Position numbers and translations under genes: made by a program. A DNA stretch of 64,000 bases from Terebella lapidaria (Eukaryota > Annelida > Polychaeta > Terebellida > Terebellidae): the NCBI GenBank assembly GCA_949152475.1, contig OX424555.1:20354868-20418867 (forward strand). The letters run 5' to 3'. Numbering within the stretch: position 1 is the stretch's first letter; every line of letters starts with the position of its first letter. Below are positions 17,858 to 62,700 of this stretch, piece by piece. Below the pieces are notes generated by a model that saw only the letters and a list, made by a program, of their open reading frames with translations, was not told the origin of the DNA and did not search any database.

Positions 17858-18865
17858 TAGAGTAGCTTATAAGGGACATTCATCTCTTTTTTTTATATAT
17901 ATATTTAGGATATAACTTTTTTCGGCAGAATTAATTACTCACTTTTGAAACTGGGAAATCAATATTCAAACCGGGATTTAAATATTGAAAAACCCGGAAT
18001 TATATGTTAAAACCGGGAAATAAATATTTAAATCTGGAAATAAATGTTAAAACCCAGAATTAAATATTCAAACTTGGAAATAAAAAATCAAACCTGGAAT
18101 TAAATATTCAAAACCGGAAATAAATATTATTGAGACGCAGTTTATTAGAGTAGCTTATAAGGGACATTCATTTTTTTTATTTACTTAGGATATAACTTTT
18201 TTTCGGTAGAATTAATTATTCAATTCCGGGTTTGAATACTCAATTCTGGGTTTGGACATTTGTTTCCAGGTTTAATCATTTATTTCCCGAATTGAAAATT
18301 TAATTCCATGTTTTAATACTTGATTCCGGGTTTGAATATTTAATTCCGGGCTTTGAACATTTGCTTCCCGGTTTGAATATTATTATCTTTTTGGTTTGGA
18401 CTTTTAATTCCAGGTTTTAATACTTAATTCCGGGTTTAAATATTTAATTCCGGGTTTGAACATTTATCTCCGGTTTGAATATTTATTTCCCTGTTTTAGC
18501 ATTTAATTCCCGGTTTGAATACTTAATTCCGGGTTTTAATATTTAATTCCAAGTTTGAACATTTAATTTCGGGTTCGAATATTCAATTCCGGGCTTAGAC
18601 ATTTATTTTCCGGTTTAAATATTCATTTCCAGGTTTGAAGATTTAATTCCGGGTTTGAATATATAATTCCGGGTTTGGACATTCATTTCCAGGTTTTGAA
18701 CATTTAATTCCAGGTTTTAATACTTAATTCACGGTTTTAATATTTAATTCAGGGTTTTAAATATTTATTTCCCAGTTACTCTGGTTTTTCCCAGGGAGTA
18801 AATCATTCTTCAGAAAAAAGGTAAATCATAAATAAAAAAGTGAATGTCCCTAATAAGCTTCCCTA
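17858..18865. mobile_element. Fold-back MITE with minisatellite arms
   Basis: A head sequence, AGTAGCTTATAAGGGACATT, occurs at 17861 and again at 18149. Its inverted counterpart (AATGTCCCTAATAAGCTT) closes the element at 18842-18860. Between them lies a ~20 bp minisatellite of the type TTTGAATATTTAATTCCGGG. The array runs in one orientation at about 17945-18130 and in the opposite orientation, about 28 units, at 18210-18780. The whole could fold back as a long imperfect hairpin. It is non-coding. The doubled head suggests one element nested beside or partly duplicated in another. Confidence 0.65.
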
Positions 18866-20445: not shown

Positions 20446-20760
20446 CAGAAATATTTAATTCCATAATGTAACACTTCCAGTTTGATTATTTTTCTCCAGG
20501 TTCATATATTTCATTCTCGGCTAGAATATTTATTTCACGGTTTGAATATTCAATTCCAGGTTTGAATATTTAATTCAGGGTTTGAATAATTCCGGGTTTT
20601 AACGTTTATTTCCAGGTGTTATTATTTATTTCCCGGTTTCATCATTTAATTCCCGGTTTTTAATTCCAGGTTTGAAATATTCCAGTTTGAAAAGTAAGTA
20701 AATAATTCTACAGAAAAAAGTTTCATCCTAAATATAAAAACTTGAATGTCCCTCAGATGC
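20446..20760. mobile_element. Partial second copy of the fold-back minisatellite MITE
   Basis: A shorter array of the same TTTGAATATTTAATTCC-type unit (20450-20700) is followed by the family's tail: CAGAAAAAAG, then TTGAATGTCCCTCAGATGCTTCT, the inverted form of the head at 17861. The opposite end is not recognisable, so this is a truncated copy. Confidence 0.6.
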
Positions 20761-29700: not shown

Positions 29701-32700
29701 TTTACACACACAATATTGTCAGCTTGTTGGTGTCAAACAACTGAACAGCACTGAAGTGATGCCTCGTTATACATGTAGATAATCAAACTGAAAATAATCC
29801 TGAGGAGTACTTTAATTTCTGGTCCATGAAAAACCAAGCACAATACATTTGTTGTAGTCCTGATTTATGTAGTTATTTTCCCACGATCTCCTTATTTTGG
29901 CAGCTGTAAATCTGACTTCTCACGGCTGGTATGCAAATGTCATTTCTGTAATGTTTTGCCTGGAAAATAATTTGTATTCATGCCATTTTCAGTTTCACGG
30001 AGGCCGTGTTTTTATAGGGGGAGATTGCCCGGAAGTTTTGGCAGGAGAGAAAAGGTTTCCAGGCCTGACAGAGTCAGAATGCTCTTCATATATCATGTGG
30101 CCAGTTTTCTTCCTCAGAAGCCCAAATACTGTTGATAATTGGATTGCGTAGACAGCTCCGCGAGTGAATTTTGTCTGCCTAGGATTACCCTTATGCACGC
30201 ATTTATGCTATATGTGAGCTGCACTCTGCACTCACATAATATGTACATAGTTGTAATGTAGAAATTTACATTGATGAGTTTAGTAGAAAATACATGAATT
30301 TCACATGTCCCAGTATGACCATGATGATTGACTAGAATTTGTCACATATGAAACACTTCATGCAAAATAAAACATTCTAGGAACAAAATGGCCAGTGACC
30401 AGTGTGAACTAGTGTCAAACATTTCCATCTCTGGGGGGCTCTATACTGCTAGAATCACAGCCAGCATCTGCTTCTTGTTGTGGAACACTGTCAATATTGG
30501 TTCACTGCTATCTATTATTCATCATAATCACCCGGGAACACCAATGGCATTTTGTAGCAATTATCTCGACCGCAGTTTCCCTGGGTCACTGTATGGCGTC
30601 CGAGATGCTGTCCACACGCAGCCCGATGTTGACAGAGAGGTGGCAAGCTCGGTACTTTGGACGCGTATTGCCCCCCGCAGTTGTGAAGGAAACAATCTGC
30701 TGAGGGCTTGTCGGTGATTGATCTGGGGTGGTCGAGTCGCATGTGGAATGTCTTCCTGGCTTGTCTTGGGTCCAACAGTCAAGGTGCTGCAAGCTCGAGA
30801 CATCATCGCACATGACTTGTGCGCTTTATGACTCCTAAGCTGTGCTGTATCAGGGTGAAATATCCAGGCCCAGAGATTTATTCCTCCCAGGGTGGGAAAA
30901 CACCTTCAGTGTACATGGTGTAGAATAACCACTTTGTCATGAGAGATTCACTAAAACCTGGGAATTTCCTTGTGTTATACAGTAACTGGTTTTCAGTTTA
31001 CTCACATCATGCATACAGTTCAAAATGAAATGTTCACCCATAAAAAATGAGTCCCTGATCGAGTACGCCCATTAAAAAATAGCAAGGTGTTCATAAAATT
31101 CAGCACCGTTTTCTATTTCGCCCAAAATTCCATATATTCGTAAAGTTGTTTTTGGTCAATGGTGTACAAATATGCGACAATGTACTGTATGCCATATGAG
31201 AAGTATCCAATAAATTTGAGTACCGTCAGAATATTTATAAGCACTGAAATATCAATGTTGAAGGCGGTGGTGTTGAACTCGGAGCCCATTCTGACTTTTA
31301 CACAATGCCAACGATAAATACCACGGTAATAAATCTTCCGTACTTTACGAGCGAAACATTAGCTGTTGTGGGACAGGGAAAAATAAATGCGTATGAGTGT
31401 TAAAAGTAAAGATGCAATCAGAAAATGGAACGAAACAAACGGGTAATTTTAATTCTCCAAAACAAGGAAAATTAGACACTGATAGAAAGTATAAGCGTGA
31501 GAAGTGAGCGATGGCTCGGCAGTAGAGACAAAAGTGATACCCGGTTGACACACACCGTGGTGATGTATGTATTCTCAAACCCCGCAGACGCGCAAATGTT
31601 GACGGAAATTGGCGATAGTGACGAAAAATTTGCTCAATTCGACGAAAATATTCGCCAGATTATATTAATTGACTGAATTGTTTACGTCCAACACTGTGAA
31701 ACAACCGTTTCAAGTATTTTCTCCTCGACAGCAGGTTTTCCTCCCAGTCGCAGAGTATTTCCCCCATGGGAATCTCAGTGAGCGTTTAAGAAGTCTCCCC
31801 TGCGGGGAGACAATTAATGGATTAAATTCTAACCTCTATTGTGATTTTCATGGGGATCAATCATTTGTCCTAGATCTCATGACCAAATACATTAAAAATT
31901 TGCAAGAATGGGCTTTGATTCTTTGGTACTACAATGTAGTTGCAGATAGAGCTCGCATCTACATGTATGTTACTGCAATGTAACGGTACACATGGTACAT
32001 GTAGTATTCAACACTGTCAGATACCCTGCCAATGGAGTCATAAATGGCATGATAAGATGTACATGCCACAGTATGTTTGGTTGAGAGAAAAATTAATACA
32101 TGTACAGCTTTTGATGCAGAATTACATGTAATTTCCTTTGCCTTGCAGTCCTGAAGAGACTCCATCCCCAATCGAAGATGCGGTGGTCAGTGAGATTACA
32201 TATTCTCTGCGCGAGTGGAGCACAATTTGGCACCGCAAGTACATTGTGAGTACCATCACAGGCATTACCATGGATACATAGCATTCATGCCGAATTGCTG
32301 AACTGCTAAATTGAACTACAACATTTTATATTTGCCTTTATCATTTTATGCTCAGTGCCGGGAGATTTCGACATGTAACCAGATCCGCTGTAGCATGCAG
32401 GAGCTGATCAACCTCCATAAACAGCTGGTGTCAGGGACACTGACTCGAGAACAGGCAGCCCAGCTCAAACAGCAGTGTACCACCATCCTCGACCACGGCA
32501 ACAAGTAAGTGTTCTGGGGAGGACATGGCAACAAGTGAGTGAAGGCAGGGGGAGGCGACCGTGGCATCCGAGACCATGCCCCATTGAGGGGGCAGCATGG
32601 CAGTAAGTGAGTTGGGAACCATGACAACAAATGAGTGGGAAACCATGACAACAAGTGAGTGGGGAACCCTGACAACAAGTGAGTAGGGGACCCTGACAAC

Positions 32701-35700
32701 AAGTGAGTGGGGGACCCTGACAACAAGTGAGTGGGGGACCATGACAACAAGTGAGTGGAAGACAATAACAACAAGTGAGTATGGCACCATGGCAACGAGT
32801 GAATTGAGTTGCAAGGGATGGATGCAGGGAATATATGTTCATATCATCCACTTCATGCACCGACATGTACAGTAAACATTTCACATGCTGTGAATAATAA
32901 AATTGTACTGTTCCAAGAGGTTCTACAACATGGAATATATACACCAGTGATGTCAATTTTATAACCAGGAAGTGTTCGATATATCTGACCAGTTTACATG
33001 CATGGTTTAGATGTTTAGGATATTATACATGTAATTATGGCAATTACATGTGCGACTAGATGACCTTGTCCCATGTGTCTATGTCCGCACAGCAGTTGTA
33101 TATTCATTCTACTGGATAGTACCCTACAATAATACTTATGTTCACAAACATATTTTAATGCATGTAGACTATATCATCATCAGCAGCAAATGTTCCTCAT
33201 TTCTCTGTTTGTATTTACTAATACTTTTATTAATTCATGATTATGTAGTGATGGTTCACCATGTTCACAAAAGTTTGGTTGTTTTGGTTTTTCAATAATC
33301 AATGATAAGACTAAATTATGTAATGGTACTTTCAATATAGTAACTGTATGTAGCCTACATGAACATTGACAATCTCCCACTCACGTGGCATTAAATAAGA
33401 TTTTATCAATGTGATTTCATGTTTATTACAAGTTCTAAAGACAGGTACACTAAAGTGATGTTTTCTGATTTGGGAAGTAGGACATAAATTTTAATCCCGT
33501 GATATCACAGTATCAGTGATAGGTCCTGTGAATACACAGCTGATACCATCTATACTCTGCAGAGCTATGACATGAGCACTCTGTCCTCAAGATTCAGGTG
33601 ACCTTGAAATGGCAGACATGATTTGTTTAGTTACTCTCAGAGATCTGAAGAAAAAACCTGTGTAGCAGGTGATTGGATCAATATTCTCTGTATACATGTA
33701 CCATCCCCTCCCATGTTGCTATCATTGTCTGGGGGACGGTTGGGGGGTGGTAAGACAGGGGTTGTCATGGCAGTGGGGGGATTTCTGGCGGAGTCCACTC
33801 GGTGAACAGGAACCCAGGCGATGTCTCTGATGTCAGGGCACGACACATTCTTCATTTTAATCTTGAATATTGACGGTGTCGTGTGTGTGTGTGATACAGG
33901 AAGTGTTACACCGCTCCAGGACCATAATGGAGGTGCTTTCATACTGGTTCACTTGAGCAGCGGGACACCAGTGTTAACTCAGTCAGTCACTGCTTTGGTC
34001 GCTGGGGAACAATAAACTTGTCTGAACAACTGATTGGCTGCCGGACACAGCTGTATAAAACCTGCATGTTTTCTGTGATATTTGGCAGATTTGCAAAGTG
34101 CTGAAAGGTATATCAGGATTATGATAAAATTATTGCTTAGGATCAGTTGCCGTCATTCTGTCAACACAAAAAGCAAAAAAAAAATCAGCAGAGCTTGCAG
34201 GAAATCCTGAGAAAAACAAGCAATAGATTACAGAGAAATGTCATTAGTTGGGCTATTGTCATGAAAAAAACCAAGATAAATGCTCCAAAAAACAACAACT
34301 CAAGTGCAAAAGCAAAAAGCCCTACCACAATTTCTCCCCCCCCCCCCCCCCCCCCCTCATGATATGAACAAAGCATTCTATCCGGTGATGAGTTGATCGT
34401 TAGTATCATTATTGCAGTCAATTACAGACTGGACAGACCCCATGGAGAGGGACTCGGCCCTGTACGAGAGGGTTCTCTGTCCTGGATAGTCCATTAGTCA
34501 TGATTTATAGAGTGCGCAATATCACCAGATCAAAGTCACTCTGATCGATCCACTACACCACAGTATTGAATGGAATTATATTTGGCACACTTTGTTTGTT
34601 TTGAAATATTAATGAAAATATGATTTATGTGACGTGTTTGTTTGCGCATACTGTAATAGTGTTTTTGTTGTTCATGAACTAAATGATGTTTAAATACTGA
34701 TAATAATAAAATATATGGGAATACATGTAACATAATGTCTGATATATTATCATGATTATAAAGTATTGCACATGTATTACAAGTCCAGTCATCCTTGCAC
34801 CTGAACAAATACATGTACATGCAAAATCTGATCAGTCCTGGTTAATGTTGAAGACTCCGGTCCATGCAGAGATTGCATTCCCTGAAAGTGACAAGTGGTG
34901 CTGGTGCTAGTGTGAGAGTCGTCTCCAAACGCTCCATTGGTTTTAAGTCAACATGGTCAAGGATGTACATGTAGAGTTTTGAGCATGTACATGTACAATT
35001 CACTAAGAAAAAAAAAAAATCACTTTAGTGACATTGCCTGAAGGTTTGATGAGTGTTGTTTTGTTTGCACAGATTGTTGGGTCTGGACCTAGTGCCACGT
35101 ATCAACAGTGAGCAGGTGGACGTAGACCAGATCAGCTCCGTGGAGCTGTACAACATCCACCATGACAGCATGGAGAAGGCGCGGGAACTCCGCACCGGGG
35201 ACAAGGTGGGGGTTACTATGGTAACAGTCATAGAGCAGACAATTACATGTAGTATCCCAGGCCAAAATCCTCTATCATTCTGTTTTTCCCCCATATTTTA
35301 TATACAAATATCTGGTACTGTTATACTTCTTAGTCCCATCAATATTGAATTGTAATTTTGCATCAGTACTTAAAACTAGTATTTGAACATGATGAACTTG
35401 TTTGTAAAGAGATCACTGCCTATCTGTATGGTACATGTACATGTAGGTACGGCCGTCGGTTCGGAAAGTCTCCCGAAGTTCATCCTCCGTGTCCAGTGGT
35501 TCAACAGGTGGTACAGCTGGTAGCCATGGCAACACAACCATGGACATCTACCACCTGTACCTACAATACCGCAGCTTCCATTGTAACGTTGGCGAAGAGA
35601 CGGAGATACAGTTTGCACTATTTGATGCCAAAACCAACCGCTTCTTCAGGTGGGTTTGTCATGATGTTGTATGGGTACTTTTTTCTTCAATTTCCAGGAG

Positions 35701-41700: not shown

Positions 41701-44700
41701 AAACAGAACAGAATACTTGTCCTATGTTTACTATCACAACAACTCCCCTCGGTGGTCGGAAACAATCAAAGTAAGGACTCAACCAGATACCTGTAAACTT
41801 CTAACTGTTGTGTAATATATTTTAACACTGTAGTGTTTGTTGGATAAAGTTTTAGCATAGATTTCGTGTTGTTATCAATAAAACTACTACATACTGGAAA
41901 ACTATTAAACCGTTTGTGTTGAAATTTCAGATCACAATTCCCACGGAAATCAACAGATGCAAGGGTTCACATATCAGATTGGAATTCAAACATTGCTCAA
42001 GTATGTATCTCGACATGGTACTGTCTACAGGCTTCTTGCTTCTATTAGTGCTTCATGGACACTCTCTGAGCTAATATCCAGTTTGACATACAGTTGCTGA
42101 TACTGTATAACTTGTGTGTTGCCCTCAGGGAAGTCTCACTCTGAGAAGAAGCTGTTTGCGATGGGGTACATCAAGCTGGTCACAGAGGATGGCACTACTG
42201 TGTGTGACGGCCCACATGAGCTGGTTCTCTATAAGGTGATTGTAACACTATCATATCTTGCTGAAGGATTAGAAGATCAAAATATGCCAACTCTTTCTTC
42301 ACATCTATGTATTACTGTAAAAGTACTAATTTTCGCGCGGTACTTATTTCGCGTATTTCGCGGTAAGGGTAGATCCGCGAAATTAAATACCTCGCTAAAA
42401 TAAGTCTCCCGCGAAAATTAATTTTGAGGTTTGTGGCCGTCCATAGCACAATACGCTGTTGCTAATCATAACGCGCAGAATTACGTTAGTTACAGTGCCC
42501 AGATACCGGTCGCTAGCGTCTGCATGGCACGTGCTTGAACTTGGTGCCGATGACATCTGCACCAAGTTCAAGCTTTTGCAGACTAAGCATGACTTGTTTG
42601 ACGTTTGTGTTTAAAATTTCAAATAAAATCTGATTTGATTTCCTGTGACTTTCCATTTCTCACACCAATTGCATTGATATACTGTGATGTCCATCAACTG
42701 CAAATTCTTTACGCGATTACTAGCAATCACTGAACCGCGAAATTAAATCCCCGCGAAATTGCCTGGGGTAAAAACCGCGAAATTTAATACCCGCGAAAAA
42801 AAGTGTTTTTACAGTACTCGTGGATGCACTGGTAAATTCCAGGATATCTTCCAGTGTTAAATAATGCTATAATGTGGGATGATGTGAGAGTCTGCACTAT
42901 ACTGTTGTGCTGTTAGTATTTAATTGTTCATTTAACTATTTGATTAAGTGTGAGGATCCCAAGAGGCTCAAGAACGCCACGTCGATGTACACTTCGTTAC
43001 CGAGCTGTATGTCGGATGTCAGTCACACTCACGGGGCGCCCATACAGTCATACTTCCGCCGCAGTGAGCGCGAGTCCGTCGTCATAGAAACCATGCTCTG
43101 CTCAACCAAGCTCACCCAGAATGGTCAGTCATCAGTCATTGTCCGTGTTGCCCTGGAAACTTGCTCAGGGCTATAGAAAGTTACTGTTTGAAACGTAACG
43201 ATAACAATAAACAGGAATAATTAATAGTAGTGATCATTGCATATGTGTCTGTCAATGAACGTATATTTGCAAACATTCATCTGTGTCACACATTGGACAT
43301 GACACGGTCATGTTGTAAAATATCATATCTCACAGATTATGCTTCAGATGTTGACTCCATGCATGACTTGTACTGTACTAAAATGTTTTCTCTGTGGTTT
43401 CATGTAGCGGACCTGTTGGGACTGCTGCGCTGGAAGGACAACCCTGAACATGTGGACGACAACCTGGAGAAGTTGATGAGTCTGGAGGGCGAGGAAATCG
43501 TCAAAGTCTGTCGCTCAGTTTGCAAACATCGCTTGTAGCTCCTATATGGCAATGTATCATTTGTGAACATGATGATATTTAAATTTGGTTTGTGGCGTTA
43601 ATGTAGCCTCTTCATCGGGAAAGCAAAATTCGGTTTCATTCATGCATTTCTTGTTAACATTAGTACCGGTAACACTTTACAAATCACTTGAAGACACCAA
43701 TCAAACAGAATAACATGTATTTGTGTGATAAATTAAGAATCTTTCGTTGTGTTTCAGTATCTACAAGACATTATGGATGCGTTATTCCATATGTTTGCAT
43801 TTGACAACGGCAATAGGATTCCTCGAGCGCAACTTGTCTTCAAGGCTCTTGTATGTGCATATAGTTATATTTCAATGAAGCGAATCGTTAAAGTGACATA
43901 CATATGGTTCAGAGTACTATTCAGTGTGTTTACCGGTAGTCTTCAATTCATTCAGAAATATCTGGTTTGTAGGTTTACATATTCAACTTTTTGGGGGACC
44001 CAAAGTTTGAGCATTTCCAGCCGGTGATGGACGCTTACATCAGTCGACATTTCTCGGCTGTGCTCGTCTACAAGTAAGTGTCTTATGGGGGGTGTTCAAA
44101 AGGTCATTCAACAGGAGGAAGCATTGTAAAATGGGTCAATTTTGGCACCAAATCACTAACGGATATCGTATAATCATCAATGACGTGAATTATGGCAGTA
44201 AAATTACGTTTATAAAAACCCCATAAAGCAGTGCTGCCAGCTGACGATTGCAGACATTCTGGAACACCTCTCATTGTTCTGCATCTTTGCCATACATGAT
44301 ATCAATTAATGTAGACATTTTGTAGATACATTATATATACATGACCTCCATGCACCCCCAGGGACCTGCTGAACTGTCTGACGGAGATGTTAGAAATGGT
44401 TACCGCGGCGATCACAGCGCCCTCTCTCCAGGAGCACTTTAGACGCTGCTTCAAGGTGCGCACAATCCCAAACTCAGTCCTAACAACAACGACATGCGGC
44501 CTTTATCTTTTGCTTCGGCTTTTTTGTATGTAATTGGAACTATCATTCTGACATTTGGGAATATAGTTTTATTGAGTTTATATCAAATTGGGCTCACATA
44601 ATTGTATCCCCCGAACAAAGTTCGGCGGATACTATGGATTTGGCTTCGTCGTCCGCGTCTGCAGAGATTTTCTTGTGAACGCGCTACAGGCCGCAATTCT

Positions 44701-47700
44701 CACCCGATCACCATTATTTTTTGCAGGCACATATATAATGGTAAGATCCCGACACCAATCGATTTTGGTTGCCGTGGCAACTGAATTGGTCGTTTGGGGA
44801 CACATTTTGCATTGAAAACAGCCTGTTTGAGACACATGGCTTGTGAACGCGCTATAGGCCGCAATTCTCAACCGATCACCATTATTTTTCGCAGGCACAT
44901 ATACTATGGTAAGATCCCGACACCAATCGATTTTGGTTGCCGTGGCAACTGAATTGGTCGTTTGGGAACACATTTTGCATTGAAAACAGCCTGTTTGAGA
45001 CACATGGCTTGTGAACGCTCTACAGATGGCAATTTTTGACGAATCTCGATAATATTTGGAAGTGTTGTTGGGAAGGGCTGTCACACGAAACCAATCGTTT
45101 TTTAGAATGATCATATAAATATTAATATGTTAACAGTCTAACTTATTACAGAATTTTGAAATATCCATTTTGACATGTACGATCATTCCAATAGCCTGTA
45201 CAATGGAAGATAATGACACTGGTTTCTTGTTCAGAATGGAGAACTGAAGTTTTCAGTGAAAACAGGACAATATTACTGAATAAGTTAACATTAGTTTTAC
45301 TAGTTAAGTCTATTATTGTCCACAATAAAAATAGTTAAGACGAGAAACGTTTATTATTAAGCTCAACAAGGTAAAGGTTTTGTCCAGTACAGATTTCATG
45401 GGTGTAACTGAATAAGTTAACATTATTTTTAATAGTTAAGTCTATTATTGACCACAATAAAAATAGTTAAGACAAGAAATATTTATTATTAACCTCAACA
45501 AGGTAAATGTTTTGTCCAGTACAAAATTCATTGGTGTAACCGAATAAGTTAACATTATTTTCACTAGTTAAGTCTATTATTGACCACAATAAAAATAGTT
45601 AAGTCTATTATTGACCACAATAAAAATAGTTAAGATGAGAAATATTTATTATTAAGCTCAACAAGGTGAAAGTATGTCCAGTACAGATTTCATGGGTGTA
45701 CTGAATAAGTTAACATTATTTTTTACTAGTTTAGTCTATTATTGACCACAATAAAAATAGTTAAGACAAGTAATATTTATTATTGGGCTCAACAAGGTAA
45801 AGATTCTGTCCAGTAGACATTTTATGTCTGTAACCAAATAAGTTAACATTTTTTTTTGATAGTTAAGTCTATTATTGACCTCAATAAAAATAGTTAAGAT
45901 GAGAAACAATTATTATTGCGCTCAACAAGGTTAAGGTTTTGTCCGGTAGAAATTTCCGGGTGTAACCGAATAAGTTAACTTTATTTTTACATGTTAAGTC
46001 TATTATTGACCACAATGAAAATAGTTAAGACAAGAAATATTTATTATTGGGCTCAACAAGGTAAAGGCTTTGTCCAGTAGAGATTTTATGGCTGTGACCA
46101 AATAAGTTAACATTATTTTTTTGCTAGTTAAGTCTATTATTGATCACAATAGCTTTTTATGAAAACATTGATCAACTTTTACTTTGAATTTCAACTTGAG
46201 ACCATGTTTGGCACAAATTATGAGTTAAAATATAACTTATGGTGAAAAGTTCGATCTGGCTCCATTTTCGTCATCTTGAAATGCAGTTTTGGTCAATTTT
46301 TAGTTTGAATTTCAATTTGAAACCAAGTTTGGCACATATTATGAGTTAAAATATAACTTATGATGAAAAGTTCGATCTGGCTCCAATTTCTTCATCTTGA
46401 AATGCAGTTTTGGTAAACTTTTAGCTTGAATTTCAACTTGAAACCAAGTTTGGCACATATTATGAGTTAAAATATAACTTATGATGAAAAGTTCTATCTG
46501 GCTCCAATTTCGTCATCTTGAAATGCAGTTTTGGTCAACTTTTACATTGAATTTCAACTTAATACCAAGTTTGGCACATATTATGAGTTGAAATATAACT
46601 CATGGCAAAAAGTTTGATCTGGCTCCAATTTCGTCATCTTGAAATGCAGTTTTGGTCAACTTTTAGTTTGAATTCCAACTTGAAATCAAGTTGGGCAGGT
46701 ATTATGAGTTAAAATATAACTCATGACGAAAAGTTTGATCTGGCTCCAATTTTGTCATCTTGAAATGCAGTTTTGATTAACTTTTACTTTGAATTTCAAC
46801 TTGAAACCATGTTTGGCACATACATGTATTATGAGTCGAAATATAACTTATGGTGAGAAGTTCAATCTGGCTCCAATTTCGTCATCGTGAAATGCATTTT
46901 TGGTCAAATTTTACTTTGAATTTCAACTTGGAACCAAGTTTGTAAAATATTCTGAGTTGAAATATAAATAGGTGAAAAGATTGATCTATCTGTATTTTCG
47001 TTATTTTATCAAACATGTCGAAATGGAAATTCATATAAAGAGATTTCAGTGGTGATTTTGAATTCGACCTTCAATAACCTCGGAAAATCAGTGCAGCAAT
47101 TTTGGTGGGGAAAAGAAAACAGTTGTGACTTGAGATTTAACATTTCTCTGGTAATCTTTTTTAGCCCTTGCTCTAGTTTTTCACACTTGACAGTGATATA
47201 TTTGGGGCAACAGAGATGATAGGGCTACGGGGGATACACCCAAGCGGTCGTAGGCGACCGGAAGCGTCTAGTTCATCATGTATCCTATTGGTGTTGTCGA
47301 TTGAGTTACAATATAAATGTACGTATAGTCTGTGGGTGTCTAGGTACCTATTGTTAACCAGAATGCCTGCATGCTCACTGTGCTTGATTGGTCATTTTTT
47401 GGTCACTCTATCTACATTTGCATAATATATTAACATTTACATGCAATTTTGACCCAACACAATTTTGTCGTATGTCATATGTAGAGTCCTACCAGTTTAG
47501 GGAACTGCCGAGTCGGGGTAAGTCGTCAACATTGCATTGTTGATGCAATGTGCAAAAACATGTATATAATATTATGTACTTTGCAATGAATTGTGGGTAA
47601 TCTTGAATACTGTATATCTACCGGGTAGTACAACTAACATAGATATATCAACTATAAACATGTACATGTATAGCATCTTAATTAAGGCATGCACTTCCAG

Positions 47701-50700: not shown

Positions 50701-53700
50701 TGTCTGGGAAGATTTTGTATATTGTAAATCATCATCCTAATTTTCACGTGAAAGTAATAAAATATACCAGCCATTGTCTCCATGTGCACGGATTTGTACA
50801 CGGGCTGCTATCCTTTACAGGTATGGCGACATGCGCGTACAGATGGGGTACGAGATCCTGACGATGTGGCAAAGTCTAGGTCAGTCTCCTGTCAATGGTG
50901 CCAGTGCCTACCAGTCACAGATGTTGTTTCGAAAATGATAACTTGTTCTGTCACATCAATAATATGACGTTATTCACCAGTTCTAATAAGATTATATGGC
51001 AGTCTTGAGCACTGATGGTACTTTTGGTGTAATCATGTATTCTTCATTGTACATGTATATAAGCTAATGTCACGATTGTAGTGAAGCTTGCATGACCAAT
51101 AACGCTACTCCTACTCATGTTGCTGGATCAGGAGACCACAAGCTGGAGTTTGTGCCGGGGATGGTGCGACCGTTCCTGGAAGTCACTCTCGTCCCAGAGA
51201 CCGAGCTACGCAAGGCCACGATGCCAATCTTTTTCGACATGATGCAGTGTGAGCAGAAAGCCAGGGGAAACTTCAAACAGGTAACCATGGTTACTAACTA
51301 ACTGCCTGTTATATTCTGATACCTGCCAGTTTGTGGAACAGGAGTTATAGTATTTTGGGATGGACTTGAGACTTGTTGTAACATAGCTCTGTACAGAGGT
51401 AACCTAGCAGCTACTGTGTTGTTTCACTGATGATGGTCTGCATTGTTCTTTCTGTTTTAGGTGGAGAATGAGCTGCTAGATAACTTGGACATGTTGTTGA
51501 GCAGTAACAAAGGAGATCAGGAATACAAGCAGCTCTTCAACACTGTGTGAGTACAGAACCAATGTATACATAATATATAAGTGAGAATGTGCAACACGTT
51601 CCTAATACTCAACATTGTGAGAGTACACGATATTCAACATTGAACGCGTAAGTACAGAATTCTAATTATCATGCAGAATGTACAGAAGTATAAAATGTTC
51701 AACACTACGTGTAAGTACAGAATGTTCAACACTGTGCATGTAAGTACAAAATGTTCAACACTGTGCATATAAGTACAAAATGTTCAACACTAGGGATGTA
51801 AGTACAGAATGTTCAACACTAGAGACGTAAGTACAAAATGTTCACATTAGGGATGTGAGTACAGAATTTTCAGCACTAGGGATGTAAGTACAAAATGTTC
51901 AACATTTGGGATGTGAGTACAAAATGTGCAACACTATATATCTATGGTAAGCGAGTATCTTACAACGTCCAATGATTTGGTGAGCAAGTATACATGCACA
52001 GGATGTATGTGACTTATACATGTATACTTGTGTTATCATGGTTATTGGTTCATATTGTTAGAGTGGTCATTGATTGTTTTAGTAGGCATAAGCAACAGAT
52101 ATAATATAATGTCCCAGGGATTAGGGACTGTCAGTTGTGAATAAAAAAATATTTTATAAGTTTGGGTTTTGATAGCTAACTGGTGAAGGTCCAAGGTTCC
52201 AAGTACACAAAGGCTCCCTACTTCCTAGTTCCAGTGTATCGTACTTAATAAAACAGATGCACATCCAGCACATAACAATACTCCAAAGCATTTGCTGTAC
52301 CGGTTCGGTACTGTTCCTTCGAATGTCTATTGCTGTATTATGTGTATGTACAAGCTGGTCTTGTTCTGTCTGTCATTGAACACATACGTGTAGAATAGAA
52401 ACAAGGTTCATGAACTTTGTATGCTGTCCAGTTAAACTTTCACACTTTCAAATGTAAACTAAAAAAAGAAATCACTGGCCACTGGTGGCTCACTGATATA
52501 TTTATACACATGTATAATATGTTAAGTTACCAAACCCTGGGATTGTGATGGCTTGCAAAGTTGACCCTGTTGTCTGTACTTCGTTAGTGACGCAGTGTAC
52601 AGAGTCTAACTGGTCTGTTTTGTTTCTCGGCTTGTCTTTGCCCTGTCCAGAGAGTACATCACCGCTGTGTAAGTCATTGTTACCATGGCAGCCATACCCA
52701 CCTTCGCGGTGATAGATACTACTTGATGTTGTGGTTAATTTTGTTGTTTTCCTTTGCATTTATGAATATATGGATTATATTATGTTGAATTCTTCATCAT
52801 GTTATGGGTTTCTTTAATTATGATTTTGTTGGGCATCTGAATTTTGTTTGCAGTTTAAAAATGATGTGAAATTATTCCACCTTAGAATATTGAGTCATAT
52901 TCCTGTTAATTTTTTTCCAGGAAATGGGCTGCAGTGTTTTTTGCTTGTATGTATAATGTTTCATTTTGATTTAATTTGAGTTTATGGTATAAATAATATC
53001 TAGTATATGTTGTGTTTTGTATGTCGTAAGAAGAATGTTTGATGTTGTCAACATTGTTGTACCTCATCAAAATGTTGACATCATTTGACATGATCATTTC
53101 AAACAAACTCTGTTTGCTAAAGACTATGATGTGTTTTGCTTCTTTGAGGCATATCTCGAAGTTAGAAAAAGACGTGTGGTATCTCTGTTCCTAATCCATA
53201 TCATCATGATCATCTGGTTATATACCTGGGGACTTGACATGGTGTGATACAATGTAGTAATGACTATGCAATTATATACTACATGTACATGTGATCGTAC
53301 AAGTGATCTTTACACTTCATTCTCTTTAGCAGTTATGTTATAATATAAACGATTTATTGTATACCCAGATGAAAAATTCCACATCTAAAGTTGCACCATT
53401 TTGTGGGTTGACAGCATCACAGAGAGTCGTGTAATAAAACAGTCTGGGTATTTTAGTGTAATAGTATCTTTCGACTATGATCTCCTTTTTATTTGATTGT
53501 CATCCTGAGGAAATTTTGTCCAGAGCAATGACATGTGGAATATGTATTTATTGGCTATTAATCTTCATACATGTAGACTGTAATGACAATGGTTGTTCAA
53601 ACAGCTGTCGTTTACACTGCAGGTTGCTTGAGAAGGTGCAGACGGACAAATCGTGGCAGGACGCGGGCTCTGGCTTTGTACAGGCTGTCACCAGACTCTT

Positions 53701-56700
53701 GGAGCGGCTCCTTGACTACAGGTCTGTGAACTGATTGTAGATCTGAGTCTCCTAACCGCTCCTCTTCCTATTCTCCTATTGTGTAGGAAGATACATTGCA
53801 GAGGAGTGTACTCCAGTCCAGGATACCCTTCAGCTTTTGCAGAAGGGTATATTTGACTTTAGCACATGGGTATACCGGTATACCTAACTTTTGTACATGG
53901 TATACTTGACTTTTGTACAGGAATGTACTTAACTTTTGTACAAGGGTATATTTGACTTTTGTACAGGAGTGTACTTAGCTTTTGTACAAGGGTATATTTA
54001 TTGCCATACCACTACCTCTATAATAAACTCTTTGGGTAATCTTACCTTGGCATTCAAAGAAGAGGAGAGAGAAATGAATGTCACAAGAATTTTCTCAAAA
54101 TTCCTGACATCCATCTCGAACTCTAAATTGAAAGAAATTACTCTCACACATCTCAGATTCCCCGCGGTGTAGATGTGACGTCACACCGGTCATATGATTG
54201 ACCTTAGCCGCCATTAATTTGCTCCTCCATTGTTGGATGTGTAGCAAGTCTTGCTTTCGGCATTCAAAGTCGATTTTCTTCACGTCTACGATCGTCTTTA
54301 GGCTGTTTTTTGCACAGCTTTTTCTTCAGTAGATCGTTCTTACGTTGTTAGCTAGCTTAGAGTTAGTTATTTGCGATTTTTTTGGGAGGAAATGGTAAAG
54401 CCTCCCCAGGCCCCTTTCCTTCCCCCATTATCGCCCGTTTGTACTTCGATGTTTGATATGTTTCAGATATGAAGTGCATCGTTTGCAAACACTACCTTCC
54501 TAAGTGGGAGGTTCATAACGCCTGCTGGCAGTGTCGGGACAGTGTGTATTGCCGTCCTACAGCGACCTGTGAGTTTTGCGCGGCTTGGTCCGTCGACGAC
54601 TGGAATCTGTGTCTTCAAGGCTTACGGGAGGTTCAGGCCCGCAGGTTTGCTGGTTGCCCCACGCCCCCTTCCCCGTCAGACAGTAGTTCTAAGCCGCGTC
54701 CCAAGGCGTCTGAGGAGCGCAAGCGGCGTCTAGACCTTCAGTTGTCTAATGCTATTTGTGCTGTAAGTTTTGATTTATCATTGTTTTTTTCTTGCAGCCG
54801 GGCACGGGTCCCGGGAGCCGCTCGTTCGGCTCTCGGCACCCTGACTTCCCCACAACCTACGGGTTTGTGTGGCTCACTTTCGGCTCCCTCTCTACTGGCC
54901 CCTCGTTCTCATGCTTCTCTGGCTGAACGACCTGGGTTTCAGTGTCCGAGTGTGGTTTCGGGGTCTGCCGGTTCCGTCGGGCTCACGACGGTTCCCTGCG
55001 CCCGGGATCCCTCTGGACAGAGAGTGTTGTTTCCCCCTCCGGGTCGGGCGCCTGCCCCCGGAGCTGGGTTTCAACCCCAGAGCCAGGGCGGATTTCGGTC
55101 CGGGCCCGTGTCGCTAGTGATACGGCCGCCGGCACCCGATTTCCCGTCGGTTACTGGACCCCAGGCCGTGGCTACCGGAGCCGTGGCCGGTAGGGGCCGG
55201 GAGCCAAGGGCCATGAGCCGTCCAAACCCACGGGTTCCTGGAGTTTCCATGTCTCCACGGTTTCCAGTGTTTCCTTTTTCTGATTCGCCCTGTGTGTTTC
55301 AGATCGCCGAGGATATCAAGGACGATTCCCCTCTTACGGCCCTGCCCTCCGGTTTCGTCGCCTCCAGCCAGGGTATGTTGTCTTTCGCCCAGTTGGCGGA
55401 CCAAGGGTCTTCCCGTGCGTCGGAGCCGTCCGGTGTTCCTGCCCAGGGGAGCTCTTCCCCGACGTCAGAGCAGCGCCTTAGGGGCGAGCTTGAGTCTTTT
55501 CGGGCGGAGATGTTAGGCCAGTGGCAGCAGTTTCTGGCGAGGTTCCCGCCTCCACAGCCGCCACCGCCCCCATCTTCCCCTCTGCCTAGGGACGAGCCGT
55601 CATCGGATGAGGAGCCTTCCCTACGGGGCTCTCAGTCGGCTGACCAGCCGTTGCCTGGCCCGTCAGGCCTCACGCTTCCGCGAAAGCGTAAGGCGGACCT
55701 GGACCAGGAGGCGGACCAGCCCGAGTCTGACGACCCTCTCTCTTGGGGGGAGAAGTTGGACTTTGTGAAGAGGGTCCTCCCGGGTTTGTGGCCCGAAGAG
55801 CATGCTCCGGCCCCAGTCAAGAAGGTAGCTCGGTCGATGATAACTTCCGAGTTGGAGCACCCCCGGCCGTCGAAGGACGCCCTACGATTCCCTCTGTCGC
55901 AGGGAGTTCGCGGCTCCATGCAGGAGCGCATGGACGAGACCATCAGGTCCAACAAGTCGGCGATTGGCGCGTATCCTGCTCGCCCGTCTGTCAACGACTA
56001 CTATACGTCGTCGGAGCTGGATGACAAGCCTACAGCTTTGAGGAGGCATCACCCCCACTACGCCTTTTTCAAGGAGCCTAAGGCCGTGGAGATTCCATGG
56101 GCGGCCTTGGCGGAACTGCAGCACACGTTTCGAGTGGGGCTGGCCACGGATTCGGCCATGGATTGGCTGTTGATGGCTACGAGACGGGCCATTCTTCAGT
56201 GCCGTGACCAGGTCCTGGACAACCCTGACGTTGACCGAGATGATTTGGCAGAAGCCTTATTGAGCTGCGCTTCGTTGGTCACCTCCATTGGTAAAGGTGT
56301 GGGTGACAAGGTGGCCCTGGACTCCCACTCACTCTGGGTGTCCGAGTTGTGGCGGCGTGACGCTTACCTCTCGTCCCTCAAGTTCGAGGTTCCGGACCAG
56401 CTCATGACGGACATGAGAGTTCTCCACCCCGTGATCCCCTCTTCTGGAGCCCCTACTTCACTTCTACTCCCTGACCGTTCTGCGGAGTTGCGGGAGGTGA
56501 AGAAGGAGGCCGATGAGAAGGCCGCGAAGTCTTCTACTTCCAATGCCCTCCTGAGCCAGTCAAAGTCTCTGGAACGTCTGACACAACAGATGGTTTCGGC
56601 CTTTAAGAAGCCCCAGTCTTCAGCTCAGCAGTCTCAGCCTCAGCAGCAGCCGGCTCGTGGCCGTGGGAGAGCTAGAGGCAGGGCCTCAGGGCTGCCCTTT

Positions 56701-59700
56701 CGCGGGGCCCCTGCCGGCAGCACCCGAGGAGACCGTGGTCGTGGCCGAGGCCGTGGCCGTGGCGAGGCTCCCAAGCCCGCAGGGGAAAAGAAACCGGGTA
56801 CGTATAGCTTCGGATTCCGGGCCGGATCCTTTGCTCGAGTGTCGAGGAGAGCTGCATGGTCAGCTCGTTTCGGTCGATATTCCTTCTTCAGACGAGCCCG
56901 TAGGAGCTCGTTTAACTCTGTTTTGGAAAGAGTGGGAGCGGCTCGGGGCTTGCCCCTGGGTCGTCTCGACGCTCCGTCGAGGATTCGGCCTGAAATTCGA
57001 GAAATTGCCACAGTTATCGCCCGTCCCAAGGGGTTTCACTCTTCCAAACGATCCAGAACGCCGCCGTGTTCTCCACGAGGAGATAACGGCGATGATCGAG
57101 AAACAAGCGATAGAACCTGCTCCCGGGGACACTCCCGGGTTCTACAGCGTGTTGTTTGTGGTTCCCAAAGCGTCGGGGGGTTGGAGACCAGTGATAGATT
57201 TTTCTCCGTTGAACAAGTTCCTAATCGTGCCGACGTTTTCCATGGAAACGCCGGAGCAAGTTCGTTCAGTCATGCCTCGCGATTCGTGGGTGGTAACGAT
57301 AGATCTCAAAGATGCCTATTTCCATATTCCAATGAAACCTGCAGTTCGCAAATACCTGAGATTTCTCTATCTCGGCCGCGTATGGCAGTTTCGGGCGCTC
57401 CCGTTCGGATTATCGACAGCGCCGTGGATTTTCACCATGGTGGCTCGGGAAGTCCAGATTCTCGCCCACAAGCAGGGGATTTTCATCCACCAGTATCTCG
57501 ACGATTGGCTAATCCGCCACCATTGTCGCGAAACGCTGATCGTCCAAGCACAGTTTGTGGTAAATCTATGCTCACGGATGGGGTTCAAAATCAACCAAAA
57601 AAAGTCCGACTTGTCACCGCGTCGGGACTTCGTCTTCTTGGGGTATCGTTATCAGACTACCTCAGAGACTGTTTTGCCGACGCTGGATCATCAGTCAAAA
57701 TTATCCGTGCTGTCAGAAGGGTTCCTTCGTCGCATTCCACAGACGGCCAGACGCTGGCAGTCCCTTCTCGGGATGCTAGCTTCCACGGAAAAGTTAGTTC
57801 CGTTGGGCCGCCTGCACATGCGGCCTATTCAGCGGCATCTACACTCCCAATGGTCCCAGGTCACGGGAGACAGATCCCAGCTCGTGCAGGTCTCTCCGGA
57901 AGTCGTTTCCCATCTGCAATGGTGGCTGGATCCCGTCAATCTGCTCCGAGGGTCGTCATTCCGCCCGCCGCCTCCATCCAGGCACGTATTTACGGATGCC
58001 AGTATGGACGGCTGGGGCGCTCACTGGGACGACAGCGAGGTCTCGGGCACCTGGTCTTCGTCTCAGCAGGAATGGCACATAAACCTGTTGGAACTGGAGG
58101 CCGTGTTCTTGGCTCTCAGGCATTGGGAAACACATTTCCTCAATCAGGCTGTGTTGGTGGCCACCGACAACTCCACGGTAGTCGCCTACATCAACAAGCA
58201 GGGCGGTACGAAGTCCCAGTCGCTGTGCCAAGCCGCTATCGACCTCCTGCTCTGGTGTCACGACCGGGGTATTTCGCTTTTCGCGAGGCATATCCCTGGT
58301 CATATGAATGTTTGGGCGGACCGCCTCTCCCGGAGGGGCCAGGTCCAGGCCATGGAGTGGAGTCTTTCCCCCAGGGTATTCCAGTCTCTCTGCGGCCTAT
58401 GGGGCATGTCGATGGTCGATTTGTTTGCGACCCGGTGGAACCACAAACTTCCTTCGTTTGTGTCTCCCATTCCCGATCCCACGGCCATGTCAGTGGATGC
58501 GATGTCGACGTCCTGGGAGGGCATGTACGCGTATGCTTACCCCCCAGCGGTGTTGTTGGACAAGGTGATCGCCAAGTTTCGGACTCACCAGTGTCGCCTC
58601 CTGCTGATTGCTCCGTGTCTGCCGCAGAGGTCGTGGTTCCCGGACCTTCTGGAGTTGATAGTAGACTTCCCTCGTCAGCTTCCGGATCGGTGGGACCTCC
58701 TCAAACAACCTCGCTCCAGCATGTTTCATCAGGCTCCCGCAAGTCTGAAACTTCATGCCTGGATATTGTCGAGCGATGTTTCCGAAAGAAGGGATTTTCA
58801 AGGGAGGTGTCCGCAAGGATCGCCTGATCAAATCGAAAATCTTCTTTGGCAGTCTACCAATCGAAGTGGACTTCCTTCTGTGCTTGGTGTCGTCGCCGGA
58901 AGGTTAGTCCTTCCAGAGTCGATGCTCCCCTAATTTCCGAATTTCTTCTCGAAAAGTTCAATGAAGGGCGAGCTCCATCCACGATCGCAGGTTACCGTAC
59001 GGCTATCGCGAAGACTCTAAAACCCAAACTTGGGATCGATTTTGGTCATGATCAAGGTTTGACTGCGTTGATTAATAGTTTCGAGATCGAAAGACCGAAA
59101 GCTAGGAACCCGGTTCCTGAGTGGGATCTATCGCTTGTTCTCAACGTCTTAAGAAAAGATCCGTTCGAACCCCTTGAGCGGGCCTCCCTAAAGTTTCTGA
59201 CGTTTAAGACGGTCTTCCTTTTGGCTCTGGCTTCAGGGAAGCGACGGAGTGAGCTCCACGCCCTGTCCTTTTCCAAAGTTAAGTGGAAGTCGGATGGCTC
59301 CTCGGTTCTCCTCGGAGTCATTCCCTCCTTTCTGGCCAAAACTCAATTAGCAGGTACGCCATTATTGAGCTTTTCCATTCCCGCCCTGACTCCTTCTCTG
59401 GGGCCGGGCCTGGAGGAAGACGCGAAGCTTTGTCCCGTGCGAGCCCTCCGCATCTACGTTAATCGTACGCGTGAGCTGCATCTCGGCAAGCGTTTGCTTT
59501 TCGTGTCCTATCTTAAGGATTTTCCAAATGATATCCGTCCTGCTACGATCTCATCTTGGATCAAGAAGTGTGTTAGATTTTGCTATGAAAAGTCACAGGC
59601 GAAAAAATCCACAGGTTTCAGAGTCAAAGCGCATGATGTGAGGGCTCTCGCGGCTTCACTTGCCTTTACGAATAAAGTATCTCTGAATGATGTCATGTCT

Positions 59701-62700
59701 GCCTGTACCTGGAAATCTCATAACACATTCACTTCTTTCTATCTCAGGGAGTTAGCTTGGGAGGATGACTCCGGCCTCCAGCTTGGACGACTGGTGGCGG
59801 CGGAGAGTATAGTTCAGCTGTAAATACCTGTATATAGCTCAACACGCCTCTGTACAGATGCACCTGAGGTCGACTCCCAGGGGAGTTGCTCCTCTTCTTT
59901 GGCGAGGGAAATTTTTGTTCATCTGCAAGAGGAAAGTCACCTCTGCAGAGCCCCTGCTCGTCTCCATGCATCTGAAGGTAATTCAGGCGTGTATTATGGT
60001 ATGGTTGTAAATATCCTGTAAATATGTATTTTCGACTTAAAAATTATAATTTCAAAGCAAAACACAATATTTACTACTTTCAATGGATATTTCCTACTCT
60101 CACACATCGGTGATGAATTCCCGGGAGAGGGTTAAACCCACCTCCTTTGGTTATTCTGATATAACCCAAAGAGTTTATTATAGAGGTAGTGGTATGGCAA
60201 TAAATAAGAAGTTTTAACTTGTTTAAAACCAGTATTTATTACATACCTACCTCTATAATAAACACGATTATTCTCCCTCCCGCCTCCCCTGCCTTAACCA
60301 GGTGGGCAAATTAATGGCGGCTAAGGTCAATCATATGACCGGTGTGACGTCACATCTACACCGCGGGGAATCTGAGATGTGTGAGAGTAATTTCTTTCAA
60401 TTTAGAGTTCGAGATGGATGTCAGGAATTTTGAGAAAATTCTTGTGACATTCATTTCTCTCTCCTCTTCTTTGAATGCCAAGGTAAGATTACCCAAAGAG
60501 TTTATTATAGAGGTAGGTATGTAATAAATACTGGTTTTAAACAAGTTAAAACTTCCTATTTGACTTTTGTAAAGGAGTGTACCTAACTTTTGTACAAGAG
60601 TATATTTAGCTTTTGTACAGGAGTGTACTTAACTTTTCTACAAGGGTATATTTGACCTTATACAGGAGTGTACTTAGCTTTTGTACAAGGGTATATTTGA
60701 CTTTTTGGTACAGGAGTGTACCAAAATTTTGTACAAGGGTATATTTGACTTTTGTACATAGGTGTGCTTAACTTTTGTACAAGGGTATATTTGACTTTTG
60801 TACAGGAGTGTACTTGACTTTTGTACAAGGGTATATTTAACTTCTGTACAGGAGTGTACTTAACTTTTGTACAAGGGTATATTAGACTTTTATACAGGAG
60901 TGTACTTAGCTTTTGTACAAGGGTATTTGACTTTGGTACAGGAGTGTACTTAGCTTTTGTACAAGGGTATATTTGACTTTTGTACTTACGTGTACTTAAC
61001 TTGTGTACAAGGGTATATTTGACTTTTGTACAGGAGTGTACTTGACTTTTGTACAAGGGTATATTTGACTTTTGTACAGGAGTGTACTCGAGGGGGAGGA
61101 GAACACTGAGAAGAGGATGACTTGTACCATGAATCTACTGGTGCGTGAATCTAATGAATCAATAGAAACAAAACAATTCATTTTAAACCCTTTTGTGAAT
61201 CTAATCTGCATGTAATGGTGTACCCTGTTTGTTCAAATCAAAACATTTTCATTGACTTTCTTGACATTACAATGATGTCCGTCAATTTACTTTCTCTGAA
61301 GAACTTTTACAAGCATGAGGTAGACCGTCAAGAGATGTACATCCGGTACTTGTACAAGCTCAAGGATCTGCATGTTCAGTCCGGCAATCACACGGAGGCG
61401 GGTCTGACGCTGCTGCTACATGGTGAGCTTCTCAACTGGACAAACCAGGTCCTCCCTGGAGAGGGGGGCGGGGTGGAGGCCTGGATCTGTAAGGAGAGAC
61501 TCTACCTACAGGTGCTGGAGCTCCTGGACAAGGGACAGGTATGTACAGTGGGTTTACACATCTGGTGGGCTTTACCAACTGTTGAAGTGAATGCCATACA
61601 TGTACTCTATGTAGTATTTAACTAGTGCATATGCTGAGCTAGGCAATGTTCTCTACTTTCAGGCTTGGGAATTTGGTATTCCACTCTGCAAAGAACTCGC
61701 TGAACTGTATGAGAAAAAGATACAATATCGGAAACTTAGCAACATATTGGTAATTCCAAATCTTGAATGAAATCTCCGATCAGACAGATTTTGTTCACAC
61801 TTTTGTGCTTTATTTTGTTAATTTGTTTTCCAGCAAAAGCAAGCATCATTTTACGATCACATTCTACAAACCGCGAGACACAATCCTGAATACTTCAGAG
61901 TAGGATTTTTTGGACAAAGCTTTCCACTTTTCTTGCGGGTATGTCTGGATTTGTTGATACATAAATGTAATTGGTTATCATGTACCACTGGTAAATATGA
62001 TGTTAAATTCATCGATATTTGTGTTTTGGAAGAATCGGGAGTTTGTGTATCGAGGAAATCCTCTGGAGAGATTATCTGATTTCCACGAGCGGTTGAATTC
62101 TGAGTTCTCCGGAGCGAAGTACCTCAACAGTACGAGCAGTCCTGGGGACGATATCTTACAGGGCAACACCCCTTGTATCCTTCAATGCTGGAAAGCATGT
62201 TCATTCTAAATTCATACTGAATACATCACAGTATACATGGTCTGAGTGAACTTTCTATTAAAGTTGTCAGGTACAGTACTGATTCAGAATGTGACTGAAG
62301 GTTCCCTAACCAGTTGCCAGACATCCAGTTCTGTGCGGTCAAACCGCTGCCGGATATCAGCTCGGAGATGTTGGACCCCGAGGTGCCAGAGAATGTGCAA
62401 GGTTTCTACAAAGTCAATGAGGTGGACACCTTCCAACTTGACAGACCCTTCCACAGCCCCAGCAAAGACCCTGAGAACGAGCACAAGGTCAGGCTTCTCG
62501 GTCAATTGGGGATATTGGTCATTCTGCCATCATGGACCATGTCACTATATGCAACTGTTTTTATGTTGCAGACACTACACATCGAGCGAGTGACGATGCG
62601 AGTTGCCAACAAGCTCCCAGGAATACTACGATGGTTCGAGATCGTTGAGCGACAGATGGTACTGCTGTCCCCCATCCAGGTTGCCATGGATACAATGGAG

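Follow-up and report, generated by a model that had tools for sequence, protein, structure and literature searches.

A DOCK-family gene of the annelid Terebella lapidaria, lying on the forward strand of the window (the whole 64,000-nucleotide stretch of contig OX424555.1 that was analysed), has three introns that each hold a tandem array, with units of 24, 29, and 46 bp, and in every case the adjoining splice junction lies inside the unit. According to the gene model, two of the arrays (A1 and A2) involve a 5' splice site and the third (A3) a 3' splice site, the donors being GTAAGT after position 32504 and GTGAGT after 51546, and the acceptor being TTTTGTACAG before G61080. A first-pass annotation of the same DNA had described these two 5' cases and one 3' case, and the description holds up under TRF, the gene model, alignments, and shuffles. 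Its unit sizes of 24 and 46 bp also stand, while the second unit, that of A2, is 29 bp by TRF and not 28.

The junction of A1 comes from the exon at 32356..32504, which ends in CACGGCAACAA followed by GTAAGTG, aligns to DOCK5/DOCK2, and has a partial and weak DOCK_N match (1.5e-05, 24.7 bits, slightly below the cut-off of 27). The array itself, a donor-type mirage, occupies 32605-32802 and consists of 8.2 copies of the unit AAGTGAGTGGGGAACCATGACAAC. On direct reading, the start of the intron (32505..32604) is filled by degenerate junction copies that bridge the real donor and the array, and a genome search with A1 also matches 32492-32682 at 67%, a match that begins within the exon. The join of this intron aligns to DOCK5/DOCK2 through DHGNK-LLGLDLV, with one single-residue gap farther along. 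Likewise, the donor-type A2 (51686-51936, 8.8 copies) follows the exon at 51461..51546, which by gene model and alignment ends in TTCAACACTGT followed by GTGAGTACAGAA, and degenerate copies extend by eye back toward that exon. The acceptor-type A3 (60557-61088, 11.6 copies) has a unit made of two related 23-bp halves, and its final 9 bases are exonic, the exon concerned being 61080..61140, where gene model and alignment place TTTTGTACAG directly before GAGTGTACTC. A left part with the same 46-bp unit lies at 53877-54000 by TRF, or at 53877..53994 up to a mobile element of 6.5 kb (53995..60530) that has inverted ends of ~225 bp and an RNase H-like domain. A3 is hence a single array interrupted by this element, which is not part of the mirage, and both of its parts sit in the intron 53722..61079, whose join DYR/SVLE aligns to DYR/TII of DOCK5. 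The joins of the A2 and A3 introns align to DOCK5 and DOCK2 with no gap at the join.

The best alignments between junction and array cover 14 exon and 7 intron bases in A1, 11 and 12 in A2, and 12 and 16 in A3, so that the six to ten exon bases first assigned to the units were an underestimate. When the exon part was shuffled and the splice site kept, the real score was reached in 1 (A1), 11 (A2), and 0 (A3) of 2000 shuffles. The junction statistics are based on 33 modelled DOCK exons; with gapped local alignment at a threshold of 22, the own junction is present at least three times in the 600 nt on the intron side for 3/66 modelled junctions, against 3/2112 swapped pairs and 0/66 reversed ones. 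An ungapped scan at 17/24 proved too strict, as it found A3, one copy of A2, and nothing of A1. Whole-genome searches (761.6 Mb), for which the tool scored only the best candidates and skipped very common words, found no copies of A1, A2, or A3 outside the DOCK gene, and every A3 hit found falls in its own intron. Together with the dissimilar units, this upholds the earlier proposal that the arrays arose separately.

The pattern recurs in unrelated genes. Among donor-motif arrays fetched elsewhere, six out of ten begin where a coding exon ends, namely in EXOSC10, MORC2, MED15, FE65/APBB, an SLC25 carrier, and a TPR-like gene; two out of six acceptor-motif arrays (L054 and L059, the latter in the TPR-like gene) finish at a coding-looking exon. 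A splice junction could not be assigned to the other four of each kind. The ten donor arrays were judged non-dispersed by eye from the first 100 of 835 places, their flanks then unseen, and one more non-dispersed donor-motif locus (C1:1244498) was omitted from them; the six acceptor arrays were the more acceptor-like by eye of 12 chosen among the first 100 of 155 places. EXOSC10, MORC2, MED15, and FE65 were identified by PDB alignment (one FE65 alignment being weak, E 1.9e-4), and the SLC25-like gene was named by a Pfam Mito_carr match. Shuffles of the exon part (n=2000) never reached the real score for EXOSC10, SLC25, MORC2, MED15, and FE65, and reached it 8 times for the TPR-like donor and 3 times for the L054 acceptor. 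With DOCK included, a small sample of arrays yielded 11 junctions, which belong to 8 or 9 genes. The units of the anchored cases measure 20-46 bp, carry AG/GT splice signals, and differ from locus to locus; one array, in the TPR-like gene, exceeds 40 copies. As a separate observation, the MORC2 junction scores 30 on the A1 region, equal to A1's own junction, and it is the sole such case among 7 other donor junctions.

These arrays are probably mirage minisatellites, formed by a duplication that spans the boundary, enlarged by ordinary turnover, and tolerated as long as they grow on the intron side. A short stretch across an exon-intron boundary would be duplicated in tandem by replication slippage, unequal exchange, or break repair, and the likeliest mechanism is that slippage or unequal exchange included the junction by chance. 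The array would then enlarge through ordinary minisatellite turnover. Copies would pile up on the intron side only, because growth into the exon would change the protein, and the outermost copy would stay the working junction while the others become decoys. Each array would thus be private to a single intron and independent in origin. The true site would still be chosen in most cases, splicing presumably coping with the decoys, so that the arrays are tolerated; where a decoy is used, an early stop or a frame shift would usually follow, and such transcripts are presumably cleared by mRNA decay.

The first-pass annotation knew of no description of this pattern, but junction-spanning minisatellites of lancelets have been published under the name "mirages" for Adh3, the globins BflGb6/BflGb9, troponin C, and PGBD5 (PMC3087553; PMC3902484). 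Judging from the accessible parts of these papers, the two sets share a unit that spans the exon-intron boundary, the involvement of both 5' and 3' boundaries, AG/GT signals within the units, and minisatellite-sized units which are different at each locus. The lancelet units are given there as 10-72 in Adh3, 150-160 in the globins, and 60 and 108 in PGBD5 (PMC3087553; PMC3902484). Length polymorphism and somatic instability are counted among the traits of mirages. The present arrays differ in their host, an annelid where mirages were described in cephalochordates, and, compared with what those texts report, in their range of unit sizes, in the one array that exceeds 40 copies, and in their spread over so many genes. 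The mitochondrial gene order of this genome, with the genes named by eye, follows the annelid pattern and speaks against a lancelet; a GFP family search was also empty, a weak negative given that its controls gave no signal either. Other examples include internal tandem repeats with ~30-bp units at exon-intron boundaries in human segmental-duplication genes, likewise a minisatellite expansion at such boundaries; in the available portion of that report these alter splicing and create introns in recent paralogues, whereas the genes here are conserved and the aligned proteins unchanged across the join (PMC2812944). Earthworm metallothionein introns similarly contain minisatellites and so share large tandem arrays in annelid introns, but the accessible text does not mention a splice junction inside the repeat (PMC12783039). 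No description of the exact pattern outside lancelets was found in the literature that could be searched, and within that literature its spread past lancelets and across many genes is new. If annelids and lancelets both have mirages, these may be a general and overlooked route to intron growth and cryptic splice sites, and they would also mislead gene predictors.

The strongest competitor, though an improbable one, holds that tandem duplication starts preferentially at splice junctions, for instance through R-loops at the ends of introns or through breaks linked to transcription or splicing. Every minisatellite in the modelled part of DOCK, three in all, lies at a junction; random placement would put each of them there with a probability of 4-11%, and all three with a joint probability of ~3e-4. 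Seeding fits this better than random placement if DOCK is typical, but the gene was chosen because the pattern was seen there. The TPR-like gene, with apparently one donor and one acceptor case, also speaks for seeding. The motif GGTAAGT is rarer than its reversal (14 vs 33 occurrences in 243 kb), and still the non-dispersed array loci in C1 and C2, among the matches listed, number ~10 for the donor motif and 12 for the reversed one, an excess of about twofold relative to motif frequency which is not significant (P 0.09). Counting the dispersed families as well gives 22 donor-motif vs 12 reversed loci among the matches listed in C1 and C2 (P 3e-5), the dispersed loci behind this value being copies of a few families, and the raw array places (424+411 for the donor motif vs 323+305 reversed) are dominated by long arrays. 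The acceptor motif shows no excess, with 23 and 23 occurrences in 243 kb and raw array places of 83+72 vs 49+124. The share of donor-motif arrays anchored at real donors favours seeding with P 0.02 if 0.25 of GGTAAGT sites are true donors, but reaches only P 0.09 if 0.35 are, and loses significance once at least a third are. The array L057 overlaps an apparent coding end and not a splice site, and so counts for random seeding, which predicts such cases. As for the reversed-motif controls, one end each was fetched for two of six regular arrays; L061 showed no exon and L060 was still array. It is rather doubtful that junctions are true hotspots of minisatellite birth, with full-strength decoys across the annelid genome, and perhaps in many animals, being ignored by a splicing rule of position and not strength.

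Decoys of full strength are present in DOCK, since the real sites of A1, A2, and A3 score 6.4, 3.0, and 6.9, and the decoys up to 6.4, 6.1, and 7.0, respectively. As their strength matches that of the real sites, the DOCK decoys look tolerated, which supports in part what had first been proposed. Protein alignments are gap-free at the join in DOCK, EXOSC10, and MORC2, which suggests, from sequence comparison, that splicing uses the outermost site. In A1, A2, and EXOSC10, an in-frame stop directly follows the real donor, and read-through in MORC2 meets a stop after 16 residues. In MED15, the 24-bp units preserve the frame and the stretch that was read contains no stop; hence, decoy use there would add residues instead of stopping, which weighs against the explanation proposed above. 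That the arrays are functional, with decoys which buffer or regulate splicing by recruiting U1 or by sites hidden in RNA structure, is quite unlikely. Many decoys do equal the real site, but recent copying by itself yields strong decoys; the A3 piece forms a much more stable fold than shuffled versions of it do (z -5.87), but those of A1 and A2 fold normally (z 0.36 and 0.15), and RNA folding is rejected as a shared explanation. Moreover, the units have no likeness between loci, and lancelet mirages, in the accessible parts of the papers, leave regular splicing undisturbed (PMC3087553; PMC3902484). Mirage arrays are natural experiments in splice-site choice: one site, together with its exon context, is repeated between several and dozens of times on the intron side of the true one, and the protein still fits the outermost site wherever homology is alignable. 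How splicing avoids decoys as strong as the real sites is a good question raised by the DOCK arrays.

Two further origins are very improbable. Although the genome has dispersed GGTAAGT-bearing arrays and the window is rich in mobile elements, an origin from a dispersed satellite or mobile element that inserted at the ends of introns and brought the splice site with it is rejected for A1-A3 by the whole-genome searches (best candidates scored), which match this gene alone, and the exon bases within the units encode parts of conserved proteins. The birth of introns by tandem duplication of an AGGT-containing exon segment, with the arrays as its remnant, has been proposed for lancelet globin genes in the accessible part of PMC3087553, but the units here span one junction only, and the start of the following EXOSC10 exon does not resemble the array unit.

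Three introns of the DOCK-family gene carry tandem arrays that are built on their own splice junctions, as the first-pass annotation had claimed. Arrays A1 (32605-32802; 24 bp x 8.2 by TRF) and A2 (51686-51936; 29 bp x 8.8, TRF) are of the donor type, and A3 (60557-61088; 46 bp x 11.6, with a second piece at 53877-54000, both TRF) is of the acceptor type; with repeats of mobile elements excluded, no other array in the 29-64 kb part of the window has a period of 9-75 and reaches 2.5 copies. According to a simple exon model, for which the DOCK gene itself was the training set, the A1 and A2 donors lie at 32504 and 51546, and the A3 acceptor at 61079/61080. The protein joins of the A2 and A3 introns align to DOCK5 and DOCK2 (E 1.7e-33), as does that of the A1 intron (E 5.3e-11, a single-residue gap past the join). 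In the best local alignments (slash, splice point), the A1 junction GACCACGGCAACAA/GTAAGTG pairs with GACCATGACAACAA/GTGAGTG of the array, the A2 junction TTCAACACT(--)GT/GTGAGTACAGAA with TTCAACACTACGTGTAAGTACAGAA, and the A3 junction TTTGACTTTTGTACAG/GAGTGTACTCGA with array sequence identical except for one mismatch. When the exon part alone was shuffled, the real score was reached in 1, 11 and 0 of 2000 trials for A1, A2 and A3. At least three copies of the own junction lie within 600 nt on the intron side at 3/66 modelled junctions, against 3/2112 swapped junction-intron pairs and 0/66 reversed junctions.

A3 is a single array split by an apparently young insertion, because the 6.5-kb mobile element lying between its two pieces (53995-60530) has near-identical inverted ends (224/225 aligned bases identical, 3 gap positions). 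The element, perhaps DIRS-like, contains an RNase H-like domain and, further along, a long frame that we take to resemble a tyrosine recombinase; a family search with this frame gave no match. Other repeats of the window include three copies (2394-3803, 10259-12686 and, in inverted order, 44672-46967) of a composite repeat that holds, in varying combinations, tandem arrays of about 121, 131 and 168 bp. There are also a 147-bp satellite (26753-28995; 15 copies, 90%) and, at 17954-18772 and 20506-20692, degenerate TATTTAATTCCGGGTTTGAA-type arrays of 20 bp with both orientations adjacent.

Minisatellites whose unit spans an exon-intron boundary, known as mirages in lancelets, are also found in other genes of this genome. 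A scan requiring GGTAAGT three times in units of about 15-45 bp found 424+411 places (323+305 for the reversed motif). Ten non-dispersed donor-motif arrays were picked among the first 100 matches listed, their flanks unseen at the choice, and in six of them a coding exon's end itself forms the first unit. These include EXOSC10 (QYQLADWRI/R, gap-free alignment to the human protein across the join), MORC2 (likewise gap-free across the join), an SLC25 carrier identified by Mito_carr, MED15, in which the aligned protein (TALLNTW) stops at the donor, and FE65/APBB, with the end of the first PTB domain and a weak match to the start of the second (E 1.9e-4). The sixth (L053) lies in a coiled-coil gene, presumably the nucleoporin TPR, on which Pfam gave no useful match. 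The remaining four (L039, L040, L041, L048) revealed no donor link in the flanks viewed.

Similarly, a scan for three TTGCAGG led to 12 chosen acceptor-motif loci, and among the six whose flanks were examined, two (L054, L059) end in a coding-looking exon. L059 lies about 12 kb from L053 on the same strand (C3:1.742-1.754 Mb), and its peptide, for which PDB and Pfam searches were empty, is taken here to resemble TPR. It seems that one TPR-like gene has mirages of the donor and of the acceptor type, found by independent searches. At L057 (C7:13577940-13578350), a 42-bp array overlaps an apparent coding-sequence end with its stop codon on the opposite strand, and looks like a junction-free analogue of the mirages. 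The flanks viewed of L055, L056 and L058 did not tie these arrays to a splice junction.

The arrays are probably explained by ordinary slippage or unequal exchange that happens to include a junction, growth on the intron side being tolerated. That splice junctions preferentially seed tandem duplication is unlikely, though a unit placed at random in the modelled DOCK stretch would take in a junction with 6 or more bases on each of its exon and intron sides at only 4.3% of positions for the A1 unit length, 5.9% for that of A2 and 11.2% for that of A3 (joint probability 2.8e-4); the DOCK gene, however, was selected because the pattern was seen there. On C1 and C2, the matches listed hold at least 22 donor-motif loci, of which about 10 are non-dispersed, and at least 12 reversed-motif loci, while a 243-kb stretch around the window contains GGTAAGT 14 times and its reverse 33 times. 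Relative to motif frequency, the non-dispersed donor loci among these matches are in about twofold excess (P 0.09); for all donor loci listed P is 3e-5, a value to which repeated copies from a few dispersed families contribute. The acceptor motif has no excess. For six anchored arrays out of ten, P is 0.02 on the assumption that a quarter of GGTAAGT sites are genuine donors and rises to 0.09 at 35%. Of two ends of reversed-motif arrays viewed as control flanks, that of L061 showed no exon and that of L060 was still array sequence. With these motif frequencies taken in, seeding became slightly more probable and chance inclusion slightly less so, and a seeding bias is not claimed because DOCK was preselected, the acceptor excess is absent and the anchoring P depends on the true-donor share. 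As GGTAAGT is present at 0/33 modelled DOCK donors, the scan catches a small share of donor mirages. A dispersed-repeat origin of A1-A3 is rejected, as whole-genome searches (761.6-Mb assembly, 438 contigs, with the window at C1:20354868-20418867; best candidates scored, very common words skipped) matched the DOCK locus only (A3, 3/3 DNA and 9/9 pattern matches; A2, 1/1; A1, 2/2). Given these matches, with the second of A1 starting at window position 32492 within the exon, the arrays most likely derived from their own junctions.

By the exon model's own scores, the splice-site copies inside the arrays (decoys) rival the real sites. The real A1 donor scores 6.4 and nine decoys exceed 2, seven of them at 6.4, one at 4.9 and one at 4.1; the real sites of A2 and A3 score 3.0 and 6.9, with decoys up to 6.1 and 7.0. 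Use of decoys would presumably yield decay-prone transcripts in most, not all, cases, because translation continued beyond the real donor runs into a stop codon immediately in A1, A2 and EXOSC10 and after 16 residues in MORC2; for MED15 there was no stop within the piece read. The RNA fold of the A3 piece 60935-61080 is far stabler than shuffles (z -5.87), apparently because the unit halves are near-complementary (TTGTAC/GTACAA). Pieces of A1 and A2 were not unusual against shuffles (z 0.36, 0.15), and hence RNA structure is not a common explanation.

The first-pass annotation knew of no description of such a pattern, but the kind has already been published, as lancelet mirages, in accounts whose relevant passages report regular splicing as undisturbed (PMC3087553, PMC3902484). 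The relevant part of PMC3902484 adds PGBD5 as a case, cites troponin C, and cites the original Adh3 mirage paper (Nucleic Acids Res 2002). Human internal tandem repeats are, in the relevant passages, likewise located at exon-intron boundaries (PMC2812944), whereas those on earthworm metallothionein genes describe intronic minisatellites with the splice junction unmentioned (PMC12783039). No report of the exact pattern outside lancelets was recognised in the literature searched, which lay mostly outside subscription journals. Hence, the observation is real and of a known kind, and its presence in an annelid and in many genes is reportable.

The mitochondrial contig C438 (15,973 bp) carries on a single strand nad4L-nad4-(gap)-nad1-nad3-nad2-cox1-cox2-atp8-cox3-nad6-cob-atp6-(TA-rich)-nad5, the genes being named by eye from six-frame translations and the rRNAs expected in the gap between nad4 and nad1. 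This is presumably the annelid ground order. A further cox1-like match, whose reading frame includes TGA codons, lies on a 61-kb contig (C417:44633-46450; L002, L003).
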